Source: Olleya sp. YS (lineage in GTDB: Bacteria; Bacteroidota; Bacteroidia; Flavobacteriales; Flavobacteriaceae). Taken from it: 64,000 nt of DNA. The notes below the pieces were generated by a model, which was given only the letters and a program-made list of their open reading frames with translations, searched no databases and was not told the DNA's origin. Where the stretch lies: NCBI RefSeq assembly GCF_029760915.1, contig NZ_CP121685.1, positions 1,896,001 through 1,960,000 on the forward strand, written 5' to 3'. Of this stretch, positions 20,235-30,666 are shown piece after piece; within the stretch, counting starts at the first letter, position 1; each line of letters starts with the position of its first letter. Made by a program: the position numbers and the translations under genes.

Positions 20235-21170
20235 ATGAAAAAAATTTTTCTCAGCGCAGCTGCGCTCATGTGTGGGACAATAATGTTCGCACAATCTAAC
20301 GTCAGTGATGTAGATCAAACAGGTACTTCCAATGATGCTGACGTTTTCCAACAAGGTGCTGGTAACGATTCTGATGTCGATCAGTATGGTGCTGTACCAA
20401 CAAATCCCAACAGTGGAGAACTTAATGATGCAGATGTGTATCAATTAGGAGACTTAAACGAAGCTACAGTCAAGCAGGCTGGAGACCGTAATCTTGGAGA
20501 TACTTACCAAGAGGGTAATCGTAACAGAGCTAGAATTGATCAAGGAGTCAATTTTGCAGAAGATAACATAGCTTATGCAAATCAGCTTGGTAATCGAAAC
20601 AGATCTAATCAAATCCAACGATTTGATAATAATTTTTCAGATACTGATCAAGACGGAAACAGAAACAGAGGGAGACAATACCAAAGTTCTGGTCCTAATC
20701 AATCACCTGGTAACACTGCTTATTTGACACAGTTAGGTAATAGAAACTATTCAAATCAAGATCAGGTTGGTAACGATAATTTTAGTGATGTAAACCAAAC
20801 AGGAAACGATAACGAGTCAAGAGTATTCCAAGTTGGTATCAATAACGCATCAAATGTAGATCAAACAGGAGACTTAAACGAGTCTTATGTGTCGCAAACC
20901 GGAGATGATAACATTGATGATACAGATCAAACAGGAGACAGTAATTATGCTTCAACTATTCAAAATGGAAATTTAAATAACTCTACTACCTTACAATTAG
21001 GAAATAATAACAATAGTCTAGTAGATCAAAATGGATTTTCACATTTAAGCAATGTCTACCAAGCTGGAGATTTAAATTCAAGTACTGTAAGTCAAAACGG
21101 TACTACACATGTAAGTGATGTAGATCAAATAGGTGATTCTAATTCATCTATTGTTACTCAAAACGACTAG
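20235..21170 (+). CDS. csgA: CsgA1, curlin-repeat amyloid fibre subunit
   Basis: 311 residues. The signal peptide ends near MFAQS (about residue 20), and the rest consists of about 25 strands of an 11-residue curlin unit with the pattern N-x-S-x-V-x-Q-x-G-x-x. E. coli CsgA has ten such strands. The units would stack as a beta-solenoid that polymerises into amyloid on the cell surface. Unlike the two next copies, residues about 75-165 are rich in Arg (GNRNR motifs), so the surface charge differs. It ends in QND like its paralogues. It has its own leader and terminator. The pattern could be called CsgA or CsgB; size and position favour a main subunit. Confidence 0.9.
   Translation: MKKIFLSAAALMCGTIMFAQSNVSDVDQTGTSNDADVFQQGAGNDSDVDQYGAVPTNPNSGELNDADVYQLGDLNEATVKQAGDRNLGDTYQEGNRNRARIDQGVNFAEDNIAYANQLGNRNRSNQIQRFDNNFSDTDQDGNRNRGRQYQSSGPNQSPGNTAYLTQLGNRNYSNQDQVGNDNFSDVNQTGNDNESRVFQVGINNASNVDQTGDLNESYVSQTGDDNIDDTDQTGDSNYASTIQNGNLNNSTTLQLGNNNNSLVDQNGFSHLSNVYQAGDLNSSTVSQNGTTHVSDVDQIGDSNSSIVTQND
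20253..20266. repeat. Palindrome in the csgA1 signal-peptide codons
   Basis: AGCGCAGCTGCGCT, a perfect 14-bp palindrome and unusually GC-rich for this genome. It is identical in csgA2 and csgA3. As RNA it could form a 5-bp stem with an AGCU loop just after the start codon. Confidence 0.7.
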
Positions 21171-21528: not shown

Positions 21529-23028
21529 ATGAAAAAACTTTTTTTCAGCGCAGCTGCGCTAATGTGTGGGACGTTAATGTTCGCACAATCAAACAACAGT
21601 GATGTTGATCAAGTAGGAAGCGGAAATGCTTCTGTAGTATCACAAACTGGAATGACCAATAACTCAGATGTTGACCAAGTAGGAGATACAAATGATTCTG
21701 ATGTAATGCAGAATGGTGTATCTAACGATTCTGATGTAGATCAATTAGGTAACGATAACGAAGGTGATGTTATCCAATTAGGAGACAATAACGAAGCAGA
21801 CATCCACCAAGGTTTTGGTTCTGGAGCTTCTGTTAATGACAATAACACAGCATCTGTTACACAAACAGGAAATGGTAACATAGGACACATTGACCAATAT
21901 GGTGATACAGATGGTTCTGATGATAACAATTCTGCTATCAATCAAACGGGAGATGGTAATTTAGCTTACAACAGTCAAGTTGGTGATTTTAACAACTCAA
22001 CTCAAGATCAAAATGGAGATAGTAACTCTAGTTTTGTTAATCAAAACGGAGATACCAATTTTTCTGATGAAGATCAAACGGGAGACTCAAATACCAGCTC
22101 AACTTCTCAGAACGGAGATAATAACTACTCTCAAATGTGGCAAAATGGTAATTCTAACAGTAGTACAATAAGTCAAAATGGTGATTTTAATACCTCTCAA
22201 TCTTATCAAGGGTTTACAGGAGATAATAATAGTAGTACAATAGATCAAATAGGAGACAGTAACTATTCGTATTTAGCACAAGTAGGAAACTCTAATACTA
22301 ATGATACAGACCAGAATGGAATGTCTAATTTCTCTGTAGTACAGTCTTATGGAGATTTAAACATGTCAAGTACAGACCAAATGGGTGATAATAATGATAG
22401 CTGGACAGATCAGTTTGGTAATTCAAATACCTCAGATACGGAGCAATATGGTAACTCAAATGATTCTTATGTAGGTCAATTTGGAGATAATAATAGTTCT
22501 TTAGTGTGGGAGTACGGAAATGATAATGACAGTGATGTTAATCAAAATGGAAATGGAAATACATCTTTAGTTCGTCAAGGTGCTCCTTTTGATGCTGTAA
22601 CTGCAGCAAGTGATAATAATACAAGTACAGTAAATCAAACAGGTGATGGTAACTGGCAAAGTACAGATCAATATACTCCTGCTGGAGATGGATCTGACTT
22701 TAATATAAGTACAGTAACACAAACAGGAGACAATAACTATAGTTTTACAGCTCAATTTGACGATAATCATAATTCTGATGTAGATCAAATAGGAGATAAT
22801 AACCATAGTGAAGTCCGTCAACATGGTGACGCTAACTCTTCTGTAGTATTATCGACTGGAGACTTTAATATTAGTGATGTTAATCAATCTGGTTTAATGC
22901 ACACAAGTACTGTTAATCAATTAGGAGATTTAAATAATTCTGATGTAGATCAAACAGGAACTACTCATAATAGTACTGTAGATCAAATAGGTAACTCTAA
23001 TACGTCAACAGTTATTCAGAACGACTAA
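21529..23028 (+). CDS. csgA: CsgA2, long curlin-repeat amyloid subunit
   Basis: 499 residues: a signal peptide (to about residue 20) and about 41 curlin strands of 11 residues, broken by a few longer loops (for example near residues 88, 112, 350 and 375) that would bulge out of the stack. Motifs such as NDSDVDQ dominate, so the protein is very acidic, with Asp at the same strand positions in unit after unit. The first 150 or so codons are nearly identical in DNA to csgA3, which shows recent duplication or gene conversion. The central part differs. It ends QND, carries its own promoter and is followed by a terminator. Confidence 0.92.
   Translation: MKKLFFSAAALMCGTLMFAQSNNSDVDQVGSGNASVVSQTGMTNNSDVDQVGDTNDSDVMQNGVSNDSDVDQLGNDNEGDVIQLGDNNEADIHQGFGSGASVNDNNTASVTQTGNGNIGHIDQYGDTDGSDDNNSAINQTGDGNLAYNSQVGDFNNSTQDQNGDSNSSFVNQNGDTNFSDEDQTGDSNTSSTSQNGDNNYSQMWQNGNSNSSTISQNGDFNTSQSYQGFTGDNNSSTIDQIGDSNYSYLAQVGNSNTNDTDQNGMSNFSVVQSYGDLNMSSTDQMGDNNDSWTDQFGNSNTSDTEQYGNSNDSYVGQFGDNNSSLVWEYGNDNDSDVNQNGNGNTSLVRQGAPFDAVTAASDNNTSTVNQTGDGNWQSTDQYTPAGDGSDFNISTVTQTGDNNYSFTAQFDDNHNSDVDQIGDNNHSEVRQHGDANSSVVLSTGDFNISDVNQSGLMHTSTVNQLGDLNNSDVDQTGTTHNSTVDQIGNSNTSTVIQND
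21547..21560. repeat. Palindrome in the csgA2 signal-peptide codons
   Basis: AGCGCAGCTGCGCT, identical to the copies in csgA1 and csgA3 although flanking synonymous bases differ. Confidence 0.7.
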
Positions 23029-23437: not shown

Positions 23438-25369
23438 ATGAAAAAATTATTCTTCAGCGCAGCTGCGCTTATGTGTGGAACACTAATGTTCGCACAATCA
23501 AACAACAGTGATGTTGATCAAGTAGGAAGCGGAAATGCTTCTGTAGTATCACAAACTGGAATGACCAACAACTCAGATGTCGATCAAGTAGGAGATACAA
23601 ATGATTCTGATGTAATGCAGGATGGTGTATCTAACGATTCTGATGTAGACCAATTAGGTAACGATAACGAAGGTGATGTTATCCAATTAGGAGACAATAA
23701 CGAAGCAGACATCCACCAAGGTTTTGGTTCTGGAGCTTCTGTTAATGACAACAACTCAGCATCTGTTACACAAACAGGAAATGGTAACACAGGACACATC
23801 GACCAATATGGTGATACTGATGGTTCTGATGGTAACAGTTCTGATATTAATCAAACAGGAGATGGTAACTTAGCTTACAACAGTCAAGTTGGTGACCTTA
23901 ACATATCTACTCAAGACCAAGATGGTATGTCTAACACATCATTTGTAACACAAAATGGAGACAGTAACGATTCTGATGAAGACCAAACAGGAGACAACAA
24001 CACATCATTTACTGATCAGACTGGAGACATGAATAGTTCTGATGTTGTACAAACTGGTAACAGTAATAGTTCTGATGTTGACCAATTAGGAGATGGTAAC
24101 GATTCAACTGTATGGCAAGGTACTGTAGGAGACAATAACACAAGTACGGTATCTCAAACAGGTGATGACAACGATTCATTTGTATGGCAAGATGGAAATG
24201 ATAACCTTTCTGACGTAGATCAAACTGGAAACAACAATGATTCTTATTTAGATCAATGGGGTGATTTTAATACTTCTGATATAGATCAAGATGGTGACGG
24301 AAATGAATCTGATGTTTTCCAAGGATATAATGGTGACAACAATAATAGTGTTGTAGATCAAAATGGAGATAACAATACATCTTATGTTTTTCAAGATAAT
24401 GACTTAGGTGGAGGAAATGATTCTTCTGTTACTCAAACAGGTAATGACAACGACTCTGATGTAAACCAAGATGGTGAGTCTAATACAAGTGATGTTGACC
24501 AAACAGGAGACATGAACGTGTCAGATGTAGACCAAGATGGTGATACAAATGATTCTGATGTTGACCAATTAGGTAACATGAATGATGCTTCTGTTGATCA
24601 AGACGGTGATTCTAACTCTGCATGGATTGACCAACAAGGTGACAGTAATATGAGTTCTGAAACTCAAACAGGTGATTCTAATATTGCTGAAAACCAACAA
24701 ATTGGTAACTCAAACATCTCTGATATTGACCAAACTGGTGACAATAACTATGGTGGAGCAGGACAATATGGAGATATGAACCAAAGTGATATTGACCAAA
24801 TTGGAGATTTCAATGGTGCATTAACAATCCAGACTGGAGATTCTAACTATTCTACGCAAAATCAAGTTGGTAACGCTAACACAGCAATTACTTATCAAAC
24901 AGGAGATATGAATAACTCTTATGTTGACCAAATCGGTGACAGTAACTCAGCGAGTGCTAACCAATTAGGTGATGGTAACCAATCTGATGTTGATCAAAAT
25001 GGTAACTTAAATAACAGTACAACTGCACAAACAGGTAATAATAACGTATCTGTAGTTATGCAAGATGGTACTGGTAACATTAGCCAAGTAACACAAACAG
25101 GTATGGATAATAACTCTACTGTTGACCAAGATGGTACAGGTAATAATAGCTCTGTATCTCAATTAGGAGACTTACATTTATCTACTGTTACTCAAAATGG
25201 AATGTTAAACAACAGTATTGTTGACCAAGATGGTTTCATGCATGATAGTTCTGTTAACCAACAAGGAAACATGAACTCTAGTATAGTTGATCAAAACGGA
25301 ACAACTCATACAAGTACTGTAGACCAAATTGGAAACGGTAACTCATCTTCTGTAACTCAAAATGACTAA
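23438..25369 (+). CDS. csgA: CsgA3, giant curlin-repeat amyloid subunit
   Basis: 643 residues: a signal peptide and about 55 strands of the 11-residue curlin unit, over five times the number in E. coli CsgA. Runs such as NDSDVDQ, NTSDVDQ and NVSDVDQ repeat with little change, and the mature protein has no Cys and very few basic residues, so it is strongly acidic. Only a few units are longer than 11 residues. The end (TTHTSTVDQIG through VTQND) matches the C-termini of the other two subunits and may be a cap or an export signal. It is followed by a terminator and then the csgB-like operon. Confidence 0.93.
   Translation: MKKLFFSAAALMCGTLMFAQSNNSDVDQVGSGNASVVSQTGMTNNSDVDQVGDTNDSDVMQDGVSNDSDVDQLGNDNEGDVIQLGDNNEADIHQGFGSGASVNDNNSASVTQTGNGNTGHIDQYGDTDGSDGNSSDINQTGDGNLAYNSQVGDLNISTQDQDGMSNTSFVTQNGDSNDSDEDQTGDNNTSFTDQTGDMNSSDVVQTGNSNSSDVDQLGDGNDSTVWQGTVGDNNTSTVSQTGDDNDSFVWQDGNDNLSDVDQTGNNNDSYLDQWGDFNTSDIDQDGDGNESDVFQGYNGDNNNSVVDQNGDNNTSYVFQDNDLGGGNDSSVTQTGNDNDSDVNQDGESNTSDVDQTGDMNVSDVDQDGDTNDSDVDQLGNMNDASVDQDGDSNSAWIDQQGDSNMSSETQTGDSNIAENQQIGNSNISDIDQTGDNNYGGAGQYGDMNQSDIDQIGDFNGALTIQTGDSNYSTQNQVGNANTAITYQTGDMNNSYVDQIGDSNSASANQLGDGNQSDVDQNGNLNNSTTAQTGNNNVSVVMQDGTGNISQVTQTGMDNNSTVDQDGTGNNSSVSQLGDLHLSTVTQNGMLNNSIVDQDGFMHDSSVNQQGNMNSSIVDQNGTTHTSTVDQIGNGNSSSVTQND
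23456..23469. repeat. Palindrome in the csgA3 signal-peptide codons
   Basis: AGCGCAGCTGCGCT, the third identical copy. Confidence 0.7.
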
Positions 25370-25501: not shown

Positions 25502-26017
25502 ATGAAAACTATATATAAATTCTTAATAGTAGTTTCTATACTAATGTCAGGTAACTTTATCACAGCTCAAACTTTTGAAGCTACTGATGATGCTACAGAT
25601 ATTTCTGGTTTTGAAACACAGTCTTCCCAAGAAAACTTTTTATTAAATCAAAGTGCTACTACTGCTAGTGTTACTAGTTCTGACAATGCTATTTTTATAG
25701 CTCAAATAGGTGATAGCAACAATTTAATTAGTAATACAACATCTACAGAAAGTAACATTACTGTCATACAAAATGGTGACGAAAACCTGACTGTACTTGA
25801 TATTAATAGTACAACCTTAAAAGAAACTGTAATACAAAATGGTGATAATAACACATTTTTAGATTATAGTCCATTCAGATCAAATTTAAGAAATGCGACT
25901 ATTAATCAAACAGGTAATAATCAAAATTTAACTATGTTTGGTTCTAACTCTTTGTCAGAAAAAATCAAAATTTCTATGCAAGGACAAGACCAATCCATTA
26001 TCATAAGAAATTTTTAA
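25502..26017 (+). CDS. csgB: CsgB-like minor curlin protein (probable nucleator)
   Basis: 171 residues with a signal peptide to about residue 23. After a repeat-free stretch of about 40 residues come four or five degenerate curlin strands (IAQIGDSNNL, VIQNGDENLT, VIQNGDNNTF, INQTGNNQNL, then SMQGQDQSIIIRNF). The spacing is irregular and the sequence is less acidic than the CsgA proteins. In E. coli the minor subunit CsgB nucleates fibres and stays bound to the cell. Size, weak repeats and position at the head of the assembly operon support that role, but this is inference. It is 10 bases from the csgE-like gene. Confidence 0.7.
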   Translation: MKTIYKFLIVVSILMSGNFITAQTFEATDDATDISGFETQSSQENFLLNQSATTASVTSSDNAIFIAQIGDSNNLISNTTSTESNITVIQNGDENLTVLDINSTTLKETVIQNGDNNTFLDYSPFRSNLRNATINQTGNNQNLTMFGSNSLSEKIKISMQGQDQSIIIRNF

Positions 26018-26027
26018 CAATAGTATT

Positions 26028-27224
26028 ATGTTTTTGTGTTTAAACCAAAAAACAATAATATTTTTTGTTATCATTCTCTTTGCCTTTAGTGCTAAAGCAC
26101 AACTATATAATACAGAAGTTGAAGCTAAACTTCAAGTCAATCAAGACAACGATTACATCAATATCAAAGGTATAGCCATTAATAAAACTCAAACTACCAA
26201 AAACTTGAGTTATAAATTGTCTGTTTTTAAAACAGATGAACAACAAAACAAATCTAAAAACGAACAAAGCGGTCAGTTTACTTTAGATTCCAATCAACAA
26301 AATGACCTATCAACTACATCTATTAACTTTGATCAAAAAACTAAAGTAATTATTCTTCTTTTAGTTTTTGATACTAATAAAAATATTATTGGCAAAGACC
26401 GAGTTGTGTTTAATGACGATGGTCAAAATAGTATTAATAAAGTTGAGGTACTCAAAGATATTGCAGCAAAAGTAGAAGACACATCCATAAAAATTAATGC
26501 TCAATTAATCAATAACGAGGTTGAAGCCAAAATACAAACTAATCAACAAAACGATTTTACCACTATTAAAGGTACAGCCTTTAATAAAACTGAGATTACT
26601 AAAAGCCTTATTTATAAACTAGTAGTTTTTAACAAAGATGAAAGCTTAAACAATATAGAAGAATTAAAGAATGAGCGTTTTATTTTATCTGCAAATCAAA
26701 AAATAGACTTATCCTCAATTTCATTTAAGTTAGATGAAAACGAAAAGAAAATAGCAGTATTATTAATTTATGACTTAGATAATAATATTATTGGACAAGA
26801 CAGAGTTGTTTTTAACGAGAGTTTAAATGAAGAAGAAGAGAAAAAAAAGCGCATATTAGAAAAATTAAAACAGGAGCAAGAACAATCTCAAGATATTAAT
26901 ACAGAAGTAAGGGATGGTCTAGAACTAAAAGGAATTGTAGTTGAGGATACTAAAACCAAACCAGGAAGAGATTTTTACAAACTGTTTTATTCTTTATATA
27001 CTCAAAATAACATAAACGGTAATCAAGTAGTAACCATAAAAGAAATTTTAGCTATTGGTAGAAACACGAAAATAGAAGTTATAGTTGGAGATGATAAGAT
27101 TTTTTCGTTTTTTGTAAGACCTAGTACAGAGTATTTAACTAAAATGAATGATTATGCCATAATCAATGTGTATAAGCATTTCAAAAATCTTGAAAAAGAA
27201 TCAAAAACAGTAAAACGCTATTAA
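26028..27224 (+). CDS. csgE: CsgE with two N-terminal CsgH-like domains
   Basis: 398 residues. A signal peptide ends at about residue 25. Two copies of a beta-sandwich-like domain follow (about 28-130 and 161-264), each opening NTEVEAK or NNEVEAK and closing GKDRVVFN or GQDRVVFN. Their pattern of a Y-K-L strand, an acidic loop, an F-x-L strand and LLxFD resembles CsgH, the amyloid-inhibiting chaperone of alphaproteobacteria. A charged helix (about 265-288) leads to a CsgE domain (about 290-392: LKGIVVEDTKTKPGRDFYKLF, quoted in part, then FSFFVRPST). E. coli CsgE is about 129 residues and caps the CsgG pore. The CsgE assignment is firm; the CsgH assignment rests on pattern only. Confidence 0.88.
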   Translation: MFLCLNQKTIIFFVIILFAFSAKAQLYNTEVEAKLQVNQDNDYINIKGIAINKTQTTKNLSYKLSVFKTDEQQNKSKNEQSGQFTLDSNQQNDLSTTSINFDQKTKVIILLLVFDTNKNIIGKDRVVFNDDGQNSINKVEVLKDIAAKVEDTSIKINAQLINNEVEAKIQTNQQNDFTTIKGTAFNKTEITKSLIYKLVVFNKDESLNNIEELKNERFILSANQKIDLSSISFKLDENEKKIAVLLIYDLDNNIIGQDRVVFNESLNEEEEKKKRILEKLKQEQEQSQDINTEVRDGLELKGIVVEDTKTKPGRDFYKLFYSLYTQNNINGNQVVTIKEILAIGRNTKIEVIVGDDKIFSFFVRPSTEYLTKMNDYAIINVYKHFKNLEKESKTVKRY

Positions 27225-27234
27225 TTATTTAGTC

Positions 27235-27633
27235 ATGAAAAAATTATTAACTTTTTTAATATTCTTAGCTGGATATTTTTGTGTAGGTCAACAACTCACT
27301 TATAAGCCTATAAATCCTGCTTTTGGAGGAGAGACCTTTAATTACCAATGGTTATTAAGTTCTGCAAATGCTCAAAACTCGTTTACAGATCCTAATGCCG
27401 ATTTAGATAATGACGAAAGTTCTTTAGAAGCTTTCGCTGAAAATTTAAATAGACAAATTTTAAGTCAATTATCAAGGTCATTATTTCAAACACAATTGGG
27501 TGACGGATTACAAGAAGGAAACTTCAGTTTTGGTAGCTTAGCTCTAGAAATTTACGACTCTGCAGAAGGGCTTGTCATTAACATTCTAGATACTGACACA
27601 GGAGAACAAACACAAATTATAGTCCCTAACTAA
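27235..27633 (+). CDS. csgF: CsgF, curli assembly factor
   Basis: 132 residues, close to the family's usual size. The signal peptide ends near VGQQ, followed by the diagnostic LTYKPINPAFGGETFNYQWL (20 residues), the segment that inserts into the CsgG pore in E. coli. The rest includes SSANAQNSF and a short beta-rich C-terminus ending QIIVPN. CsgF links the pore to the CsgB nucleator on the outer surface. It lies 10 bases after csgE and 17 before csgG. Confidence 0.95.
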   Translation: MKKLLTFLIFLAGYFCVGQQLTYKPINPAFGGETFNYQWLLSSANAQNSFTDPNADLDNDESSLEAFAENLNRQILSQLSRSLFQTQLGDGLQEGNFSFGSLALEIYDSAEGLVINILDTDTGEQTQIIVPN

Positions 27634-27650
27634 TCACTTAACTTCACATC

Positions 27651-29138
27651 ATGATAAATTTTAGACCTGCTTTTGCAGTCATATTATTTTTAATCTTAAC
27701 CAGTTGTGGCGCTTTTTTTAATCAACCTTATAAGCAAGAAAGAGCTAGAATTGGAGAATCGACTCCAGTTACCAGTAAGTTAACCCAGTTTCCACTACCA
27801 CAAGAACCAGTTGTAGCAGGTGTTTATAACTTTAAAGACCAAACAGGTCAATATAAAGCTGTAGAAAATGGAAGTACCTTTAGTACAGCTGTATCTCAAG
27901 GTGGTACAACCATGTTAATTAAAGCGTTAGAAGATTCTAAATGGTTTACAGTAATAGAAAGAGAAAATTTAGGAAACCTTTTAAACGAAAGAAACATTAT
28001 TCGATCTACCAGAGATGAGTATAGAAAAAACCAAAATCCAAACGAACCTAATTTACCACCACTACTATATGCTGGCGTATTACTTGAAGGTGGAATAATT
28101 TCTTACGACACAAACATCATCACTGGAGGTGCAGGAGCTAGATATTTAGGTATAGGTAGTTCTACACAATATAGACAAGATAGAATAACCGTATATTTAA
28201 GAGCAGTCTCTACATCAAGCGGAAAAATTTTGAAAACCGTTTATATTTCTAAAACAATTTTATCTCAAGCAGTATCCGCAAACTTATTCAAATATGTTAA
28301 GTACCAACGTTTATTAGAAACCGAAGTAGGTTTTACTAAAAACGAACCTGTACAACTAGCAATGAAAGAAGCAATTGAAAAAGCTGTAGAATCTTTAATT
28401 ATAGAAGGAATAAAAGATAAATTATGGTTACCTAGATTAAGCGAAGAATCTACTGCACAACTTATTCAAGATTATGATGCAGAAAAAGATGAAGCCATCT
28501 CAACAGAATTGTACGAGAGATTTTTAACAGAACGTCGAGGTGATTACGCCATTACTGGTGCTTTAGGAGGTACATTAATTAACGGAGATTTACCAGACCC
28601 TCAACCAGAATTTAATAGTAAAATAGGTCTCAAACGTTCTCTTAATCCTTATCTAAGTTTAGGATTTACTTACAACAAATACAACTTAGAAAATAAAGAG
28701 ATTTTAAACGAAGGCTTTATGTCTTTTGATTTAAATATAGAATACAGGGTGTTACCGTTCGACAATTTTACACCTTATCTTTTTGCAGGTGTTGGTACTA
28801 ATGCTTCAAACTATTTTAAAGCAATCGACCCAAAATTGCAAGCGGGAATTGGTTTGGAATATTTAATACAAGACAATCTAGGCGTGTATCTTTATGGAGA
28901 GCATAATCTTGTGTTTTCAGATGAAATTGATGGTGTAGTAGCTGGTAGTATTGATGATATGTTTTATCGATTTGGTTTAGGAGTCAACTACTATTTGTCT
29001 AAACCACAAACTAAATTCAACCAAAGAAAAGAATTAGAAAAGCTTCAAAAAGCAGAATTAAAGGCACAAAAGAAAGAAAATCGTAGGTTAATGCAAGAGA
29101 AAAATAGAGCAGAACGCCAAAACAGAAAAAATAATTAA
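27651..29138 (+). CDS. csgG: CsgG curli pore with C-terminal beta-barrel-like extension
   Basis: 495 residues, against about 277 in E. coli. A lipoprotein signal gives Cys19. Residues about 45-270 are CsgG (VVAGVYNFKDQTGQYK, then TTMLIKALEDSKWFTVIERENL quoted in part, then the strand pair with GARYLGIGSSTQYRQDRITV), which forms the outer-membrane secretion pore. Residues about 300-450 look like an eight-strand outer-membrane beta-barrel (YAITGALGGTLING, YLSLGFTYNKYNL, FTPYLFAGVGTN, LQAGIGLEYLIQDNLGVYLYGEHNL quoted in part). The last 45 are a basic, Lys/Arg/Gln-rich helix. The extension could anchor the pore or contact the cell wall. The core assignment is firm; the role of the added parts is not known to me. 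Confidence 0.93.
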   Translation: MINFRPAFAVILFLILTSCGAFFNQPYKQERARIGESTPVTSKLTQFPLPQEPVVAGVYNFKDQTGQYKAVENGSTFSTAVSQGGTTMLIKALEDSKWFTVIERENLGNLLNERNIIRSTRDEYRKNQNPNEPNLPPLLYAGVLLEGGIISYDTNIITGGAGARYLGIGSSTQYRQDRITVYLRAVSTSSGKILKTVYISKTILSQAVSANLFKYVKYQRLLETEVGFTKNEPVQLAMKEAIEKAVESLIIEGIKDKLWLPRLSEESTAQLIQDYDAEKDEAISTELYERFLTERRGDYAITGALGGTLINGDLPDPQPEFNSKIGLKRSLNPYLSLGFTYNKYNLENKEILNEGFMSFDLNIEYRVLPFDNFTPYLFAGVGTNASNYFKAIDPKLQAGIGLEYLIQDNLGVYLYGEHNLVFSDEIDGVVAGSIDDMFYRFGLGVNYYLSKPQTKFNQRKELEKLQKAELKAQKKENRRLMQEKNRAERQNRKNN

Positions 29139-29178
29139 TCTGTTAAATTTTAATTTAACATTTAAATAATTGAAACAG

Positions 29179-30666
29179 ATGAAAATACTATCAAAATATA
29201 TAAGCTTAATCGTCATAATAACTATGTTAGTTAGTTGTAGTGAAGATAAGATTACACTAAGTGGAACAGGAACTATTACCGGAAAAGTGGTATCACAAGG
29301 TGATAATATACCATTAGAAAACACCAGAGTATCAACTAACCCAAACTCTAGTATTGTTTTTACAGATGCATCAGGAAATTTTGTAATTAACGACATAGCA
29401 GTAGGAACCTACTCTGTGCAAGCACAAAAAGAAGGTTATTTAAGTAAGTTTGAGCCTGCAACAGTTACTGACGATAACACGGTAAATGTAATTTTTGAAT
29501 TGGATATAGAAACAGCAAATAACGATGCACCTAATGCACCTGTCTTAGTCAGTCCTTCTAATAATGCAGTAAATCAAGCTATAACGTTAGATTTAGTTTG
29601 GACAGGATCTGACCCTGAAGATGACGATTTGACTTATGAAGTACAAATTTTAAACGATCAAAACTCTGACGTATTAACATTTACAGATTTAACAGATACT
29701 ACACTAACTATTTCAGATTTAGATTATAATACCAAATATTTTTGGCAAGTTTCAGCTTCAGATAATATAAATGATCCAATTTTAAGCGAAACCTATAATT
29801 TCAAAACCTTAGAATTCCCAGATAACAGACACTTTTTTACTAGAAAAATAAATGGAAATAATGTGATTTTTTCTGTTGATGATGCAGGTAACGAATATCA
29901 ACTCACTTCTGCAAGCAATAATAGCTGGAGGCCTAGAAAAGCGAGCAATTTAGATAAAATTGCATTTTTAAGATCTAATGGTGGACAAGTACATATTTAC
30001 ACCATGGATTTAAATGGATCTAACGTTATGCAGGTAACTAATACAGTATCTGTAAATGGATTTAATTTAGAAGAACTAGATTTTGAATGGAAAAGTAACA
30101 ATACCAAACTGGTGTACCCTAATTTTGATTCGTTATACGAAATCAATAGCAATGGGTCTGGCTTAAATTTAATCCATCAAACATTAAATGGTAATTTTAT
30201 TACAGAAGTAGATTGGTGTCAATTAACACAACGTTTAGCTGTAAAAACAAATAATGCTGTAGGTTATAATGTAGAAATATATACTATGACTAACTCAGGC
30301 GGTATTGTAGATTATATCTTGCAAAGTGTAACTGGTGCGGCAGGTGGATTAGACTATACTTTTGATGGTACTAAGTTATTATACACTTACGATGTATCTG
30401 GTAATCAAAATGTAGATTATAGACAGTTAGACTCTCATATGTTTATATACGATATAAATACTATGACTACAATAGATATTTCTACTTCTAAACCAGCAGG
30501 AACTAATGATTTAGATCCTAAATTTTCACCTAACGAAGCAGAGGTCATTTTTGTAAATACTTCTAATGACGGTATCTCACAACAAGATTTAGTTAAAGTA
30601 GAACTTGCTTCTTTAAGTACTAGAACATTATTTTTAGAAAACGGAAAAATGCCAGATTGGAAGTAA
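29179..30666 (+). CDS. Beta-propeller lipoprotein with CarboxypepD-like and Fn3 domains, last gene of the curli operon
   Basis: 495 residues from ATG 29179; an upstream TTG at 29170 is less likely. The lipobox gives Cys20. The order is a carboxypeptidase-regulatory-like domain (about 30-105, ITGKVVSQG to VNVIFEL), an Fn3-like domain (about 115-210, DLVWTGSDPEDDDLTYEVQI in part, FWQVSASD), and a TolB/PD40-type beta-propeller (about 215-495) with repeated blades such as IYTMDLNGSNVMQVT and PKFSPNEAEVIF. It begins 40 bases after csgG and ends with a terminator. It is not one of the known Csg proteins. Position suggests a surface accessory or anchoring role. Confidence 0.8.
   Translation: MKILSKYISLIVIITMLVSCSEDKITLSGTGTITGKVVSQGDNIPLENTRVSTNPNSSIVFTDASGNFVINDIAVGTYSVQAQKEGYLSKFEPATVTDDNTVNVIFELDIETANNDAPNAPVLVSPSNNAVNQAITLDLVWTGSDPEDDDLTYEVQILNDQNSDVLTFTDLTDTTLTISDLDYNTKYFWQVSASDNINDPILSETYNFKTLEFPDNRHFFTRKINGNNVIFSVDDAGNEYQLTSASNNSWRPRKASNLDKIAFLRSNGGQVHIYTMDLNGSNVMQVTNTVSVNGFNLEELDFEWKSNNTKLVYPNFDSLYEINSNGSGLNLIHQTLNGNFITEVDWCQLTQRLAVKTNNAVGYNVEIYTMTNSGGIVDYILQSVTGAAGGLDYTFDGTKLLYTYDVSGNQNVDYRQLDSHMFIYDINTMTTIDISTSKPAGTNDLDPKFSPNEAEVIFVNTSNDGISQQDLVKVELASLSTRTLFLENGKMPDWK

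Follow-up and report, generated by a model that had tools for sequence, protein, structure and literature searches.

CsgC and CsgH block the nucleation of curlins at low ratio, and CsgE blocks it at 1:1 and in E. coli caps the CsgG pore in a 9:9 arrangement (PMC4838910, PMC5135000). Two distant cysteines define CsgH and a CxC motif defines CsgC, and sub-families of CsgH occur in Bacteroidetes (Taylor et al. 2016, PMC4838910). Surveys of curli operons describe Bacteroidetes without csgC (PMC3521004), and csgH is among the genes counted in PMC10192328 and PMC12822426. Where, then, is the missing curli inhibitor of Bacteroidetes to be found? The locus described here suggests that it lies inside CsgE itself.

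The window, a stretch of 64,000 nucleotides from Olleya sp. YS, contains a curli cluster in which all genes lie on the forward strand in the order curlins, csgH-csgH-csgE, csgF, csgG. Three curlin subunits of 311, 499 and 643 residues (20235-21170, 21529-23028 and 23438-25369) give 20, 31 and 49 matches to a simple repeat pattern; 25-55 strands had been proposed for the subunits. They are followed by a short curlin-like protein of 171 residues (25502-26017; PF07012, 23.8 bits against a cut-off of 20.7), for which a CsgB-like role would be a guess. Downstream of the fusion gene stand csgF (27235-27633; 132 residues; PF10614, 116.6 bits) and csgG (27651-29138; 495 residues; PF03783, 231.2 bits over residues 46-261). 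This CsgG has about 190 extra C-terminal residues that resemble an outer-membrane barrel (PF13505, 26.5 bits over residues 320-447, below the cut-off of 28.7; NF052316, PorG, E 5.6e-5). A lipoprotein-like open frame at 29170-30666 adjoins csgG and is also found beside csgG in L036 and L073, and may be a further curli-linked gene.

The gene at 26028-27224 encodes 398 residues, comprising a signal peptide, two CsgH-like domains and CsgE. The signal peptide (residues 1-24, 26028-26099) is recognised from its sequence, which ends AKA/Q, and contains a helix at residues 7-21 in a full-length structure model of low confidence. The first CsgH-like domain (residues 26-132, 26103-26423) is joined by a linker (residues 133-157, 26424-26498; pLDDT below 50 across residues 130-163) to the second (residues 158-265, 26499-26822), which can be aligned with the one CsgH domain that relatives have. 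As predicted, the two form a tandem pair of about 100 residues each: they align over 105 residues with no gaps at 51% identity (E 1e-33), values that mark a true tandem repeat and rule out a chance likeness. The full-length model, with a poor pLDDT of 52.7, has seven strands in each repeat and is silent on how the domains are arranged. A charged linker (residues 266-295, 26823-26912), for which the same model predicts a helix at residues 269-286, precedes CsgE. The linker includes an in-frame run of eight A (26841-26848), which was considered as a slippery site and rejected, as it is not conserved in other Olleya genes, whose linkers have a run of seven or none.

The last quarter of the protein (residues 296-398, 26913-27221) was correctly assigned to CsgE, with PF10627 matching residues 300-393 at 39.6 bits against a cut-off of 25. 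The NCBI equivalog NF007701 gives 24 bits (E 2.8e-5) where its cut-off is 137; it models the enterobacterial CsgE, and the protein is therefore filed as a member of the CsgE family rather than as an equivalog. A phmmer search of the PDB with the whole protein likewise has CsgE (2na4) as its best match, a weak one at E 0.15, and csgF, csgG and curlins adjoin the gene, the context that goes with csgE.

The likeness of the two N-terminal domains to CsgH, which the original prediction had drawn from strand pattern, is supported by profile and by predicted fold. NF041112, the NCBI model of CsgH, matches residues 33-117 of the whole protein at 36.4 bits, passing its cut-off of 35 by 1.4 bits, and scores 33.9 bits, below that cut-off, on the same gene in a six-frame search of the genome. 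PF10610 (CsgC) reaches 23.7 bits on the protein, just below its cut-off of 25, and PF21112, the Pfam CsgH model, has no match up to E 1. A profile built from the domains of relatives matches both copies (E 3.7e-39 and 3.7e-37), the result for copy 2 being partly circular as the profile includes domain 2. The fold of domain 1 was predicted with AF2 from an alignment of four sequences, namely both domains of this protein and both of the O. namhaensis protein, and has seven strands with a pLDDT of 89.8. When this model is compared by Foldseek with 350,542 PDB chains, CsgH (2n59) ranks first at E 5.5e-6 and CsgC (2xsk) second at E 8.8e-6, with a TM-score of 0.69/0.79 (0.79 by target length); the unrelated fold that would have refuted the assignment was thus not obtained. 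The margin is small, given that Ig-like domains of unrelated enzymes match from E 1.9e-5 and range from 1e-5 to 1e-3, although 2n59 and 2xsk are the sole short whole-chain matches among the top results. The seven-stranded CsgH/CsgC fold is thus modelled directly for domain 1 and extends to domain 2 through their 51% identity.

In two respects the domains depart from the described inhibitors. The mature protein has no cysteine, the single one being residue 4 in the signal peptide, so both the two distant cysteines of CsgH and the CxC motif of CsgC are absent, and two cysteines are found in none of 61 domains of relatives. As the two families are defined by their cysteines, the domains are named here CsgH/CsgC-like. 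The second respect is charge. CsgC and CsgH have been described with a positive patch that meets the acidic CsgA. The curlins of this locus carry net charges of -29, -70 and -112, and the domains themselves -1 (domain 1) and -4 (domain 2), with a median of -2 over the 61 domains of relatives and +4 for CsgE. Such net charges on the domains do not suit simple attraction to the curlins, although a local patch is possible.

The further claim that no separate csgC or csgH is present at the locus extends, with NF041112 and domain 1 as queries, to the whole genome, which is 3.0 Mb in one contig with one CsgE. In these 3.0 Mb, NF041112 finds this gene and a single other match of 11.6 bits (E 0.65), and domain 1 as query matches just the two copies here.

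As a feature exceptional to this locus, the joining of CsgH to CsgE is not supported. CsgE was found in 56 of 249 genomes of the family sample. Outside Olleya, 54 genomes of the family bear csgE, and in all 46 of those inspected with local profiles one CsgH domain and CsgE lie in one frame, indicating that the pairing is old and has been kept; the remaining eight comprise four present in the alignment (one of them truncated at the end of its contig) and four judged by open frame alone, of 240-276 residues. NF041112 matches 22 of 32 aligned relatives at E 0.01. A fusion unique to this genome, or produced by an assembly artefact, is ruled out by its being common to relatives. In the phylum sample CsgE occurs in 41 of 395 genomes, and among the best 29 of these loci CsgH is fused in frame in five, split in two and undetected by the relatives' profile in 22, in some of which a remoter CsgH could be present. 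All seven fused or split loci belong to the family of the window or to another family of its order. The fusion thus seems characteristic of the order, and the doubling of Olleya. In Olleya CsgE is present in eight of ten genomes, with two CsgH domains in seven and one in the eighth; the protein of Olleya namhaensis DSM 28881, 75% identical, was the single locus found in named genomes with this protein as query. No open frame longer than 306 residues was seen outside Olleya in the family, phylum and g128 samples.

Two further arrangements were observed. Four of ten CsgE proteins scanned from the phylum sample (L037, L040, L043 and L050) have an N-terminal LysM domain above the Pfam cut-off, and L044 and L046 a weaker match, raising the question of whether such a CsgE is anchored to the wall. 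In genome G406, from another family of the class, a separate CsgH of 138 residues (L132:14722-15135, forward strand; PF21112, 30.9 bits) shares a cluster with a CsgE that lacks CsgH, the two standing about 5 kb apart.

What is unusual is the second CsgH copy, found in seven of the eight csgE-bearing Olleya genomes and nowhere else sampled. In a tree of 64 domains, which has few columns and leaves many forks open, copy 1 of the seven genomes forms one clade (support 99/99) and copy 2 another (75/89, a single clade in 80% of bootstrap trees), so that the duplication predates these species and both copies have been retained. Both are under purifying selection, with dN/dS of 0.05-0.20 for domain 1 (five of five pairs) and 0.05-0.16 for domain 2 (three of five pairs, dS not being computable in two), alongside 0.02-0.05 for CsgE (five of five). 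The eighth genome, G636 (L074:9778-10575), has one CsgH domain and a curlin of 385 residues. A loss of one copy was considered and rejected, since its domain groups with that of G056, from another genus, with support of 99/89; this suggests, from the domain tree, that the csgE of G636 may have come from elsewhere and replaced the resident gene by transfer.

What is the advantage, if any, of a second copy? The original prediction was that it may suit long subunits, and the longest curlin per genome does have a median of 665 residues in six genomes with two domains, whereas the median is 416 in the 48 genomes with one (p 0.0006 by a one-sided rank test, uncorrected for kinship and with one genus counted as six). 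The comparison excluded L075 (the same genome as L073), the six non-family loci L128-L133, and L083, which has no curlin that fitted the pattern. As one genus counts six times the difference does not show cause, and one-domain relatives manage curlins of up to 1042 residues with 64 repeat matches; the tie between doubling and long subunits is suggestive only, and subunit length as a demonstrated driver is rejected. A rival to an adaptive second copy accepts the fusion as working in the manner proposed below and treats the extra domain as a neutral or dosage change untied to subunit length. This has a little under an even chance of being right: the single origin in one genus and the long curlins of one-domain relatives favour it, and the retention of both copies in seven genomes under purifying selection speaks against it, as does the difference in medians; the short curlin of the one-domain Olleya points the same way, but with a csgE that groups with another lineage it is no clean loss.

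The explanation that best accounts for the protein as a whole, and which we consider likely, is that it would act as a chaperone tethered at the gate. The secreted, periplasmic protein would have two CsgH-type immunoglobulin-like domains tethered via flexible and helical linkers to CsgE, the CsgE part capping the nonameric CsgG pore on its periplasmic side as in E. coli. Joining CsgH to CsgE would place the inhibitor at the mouth of the pore, with up to eighteen CsgH domains per cap round the entrance, or nine in one-domain relatives. There, through brief contacts, these domains would keep the curlins, which are acidic and rich in repeats, from folding and would then pass them to the pore, the tether standing in for a free, diffusing CsgC or CsgH. 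Alternatively, the Ig-like domains could be spacers or adaptors that fix CsgE to CsgG, to another part of the envelope or to each other, with no part in inhibiting amyloid. Ig-like domains often serve as adaptors, the model has further matches among Ig domains of other proteins, and the domains here have neither positive net charge nor cysteines; moreover, the LysM domain that another family of the phylum has on CsgE instead indicates that CsgE accepts wall-anchoring modules. A purely structural role is nevertheless unlikely. The closest of all PDB chains are the two known curli amyloid inhibitors, the sequence models agree with this, and the curli operon here has no other CsgC or CsgH. In addition, a sister genus appears to make the CsgH part alone by design, for which a mere spacer would have no need.

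That genus, g128, is a large sister genus in the same family and is probably Flavobacterium. CsgE was found in 60 of its 249 sampled genomes, in 27 of which the CsgE frame is just 112-129 residues long. With four more from the phylum sample, 64 loci were read: CsgH and CsgE share one frame in 36 and lie in different, overlapping frames in 28, with CsgE in the -1 frame (L125:9472-10205, forward strand; L126:9830-10560, reverse strand; and 26 more g128 loci, in part L134-L165). At the junction of all 28 split loci, from 28 species, stands exactly A10 followed by G in the same phase, while the flanks are variable; the stop of CsgH comes 0-10 codons after the run. Over the 207,595 bases of these loci, with both strands counted, exact A10 runs number 36, 28 of them being the junctions and four lying in one-frame linkers; a linker run of at least nine A is found in seven of the 36 one-frame loci. 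Lysine is encoded in these loci by AAA 490 times and AAG 97 times, yet the third lysine codon at the junction is AAG in 28 of 28. The phase is that of A_AAA_AAG, the dnaX site. Either this heptamer in phase or a run of A9-A10 leads to two products from one gene, and an A10 run is also long enough for slippage by RNA polymerase (PMC3711429, PMC5009743). The slippery run thus occurs, in all 28 split loci, in phase with a downstream CsgE frame that is conserved. Mapped onto the tree of CsgE, the split state requires three changes, at least two of them by well-supported branches.

These sequence features make the A10-G junction a likely candidate for a programmed slippage site that would give both free CsgH and CsgH-CsgE. 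In L153, L157 and L174, g128 loci with csgH-csgE in one frame and an A10-G run in the linker, slippage would instead yield free CsgH. It is improbable that the frame break reflects a pseudogene, an error in sequencing or phase variation: homopolymers are error-prone and hypermutable, a one-frame relative (L065) has A11, and no clear stimulatory RNA structure is evident downstream (mean z -1.40, five of 28 under -2 with mononucleotide shuffles), but chance errors or phase variation would produce runs of 9, 10 and 11 rather than one invariant junction in 28 species with variable flanks, and the CsgE frame is conserved even though, in the split cases listed, it lacks both a start and a signal peptide. 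On balance, with a modest lean in its favour, curli export in Flavobacteriaceae may combine a CsgG-capping CsgE that carries a CsgH ring with, in part of g128, A10-G slippage setting the ratio of free to gate-tethered chaperone, much as in dnaX.

How does this system compare with those already described? In the openly available article text that was searched, no CsgH-CsgE fusion, tandem CsgH or slippage site in a curli gene was found; the terms curli, CsgE and Flavobacteri- are absent from the accessible text of PMC3711429 and PMC5009743. The Bacteroidetes CsgH sub-family is reported, in the available part of PMC4838910, with no mention of CsgE fusion or tandem copies. With alphaproteobacterial CsgH (NF041112, PF21112; 2n59) the domains share the seven-stranded Ig-like fold, the curli operon and the best PDB match, at 16% identity in the structural alignment of domain 1; that CsgH is a free single domain, whereas here two copies are fused to CsgE, have no cysteines and are unmatched by PF21112. 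With enterobacterial CsgC (PF10610; 2xsk) they share the fold and a near-threshold profile match, but lack the CxC motif and are not a separate gene. E. coli CsgE (PF10627; 2na4) is a free one-domain protein, whereas in the 398-residue protein CsgE makes up just the last quarter; the kinship shows in this C-terminal domain, which passes the Pfam cut-off, and in csgF and csgG as neighbours. Finally, frameshifting or slippage in dnaX makes two products from one gene, and its g128 counterpart would set free CsgH against CsgH-CsgE; if real, this conserved slippery site would represent recoding in the control of amyloid, for which no precedent was found in print.
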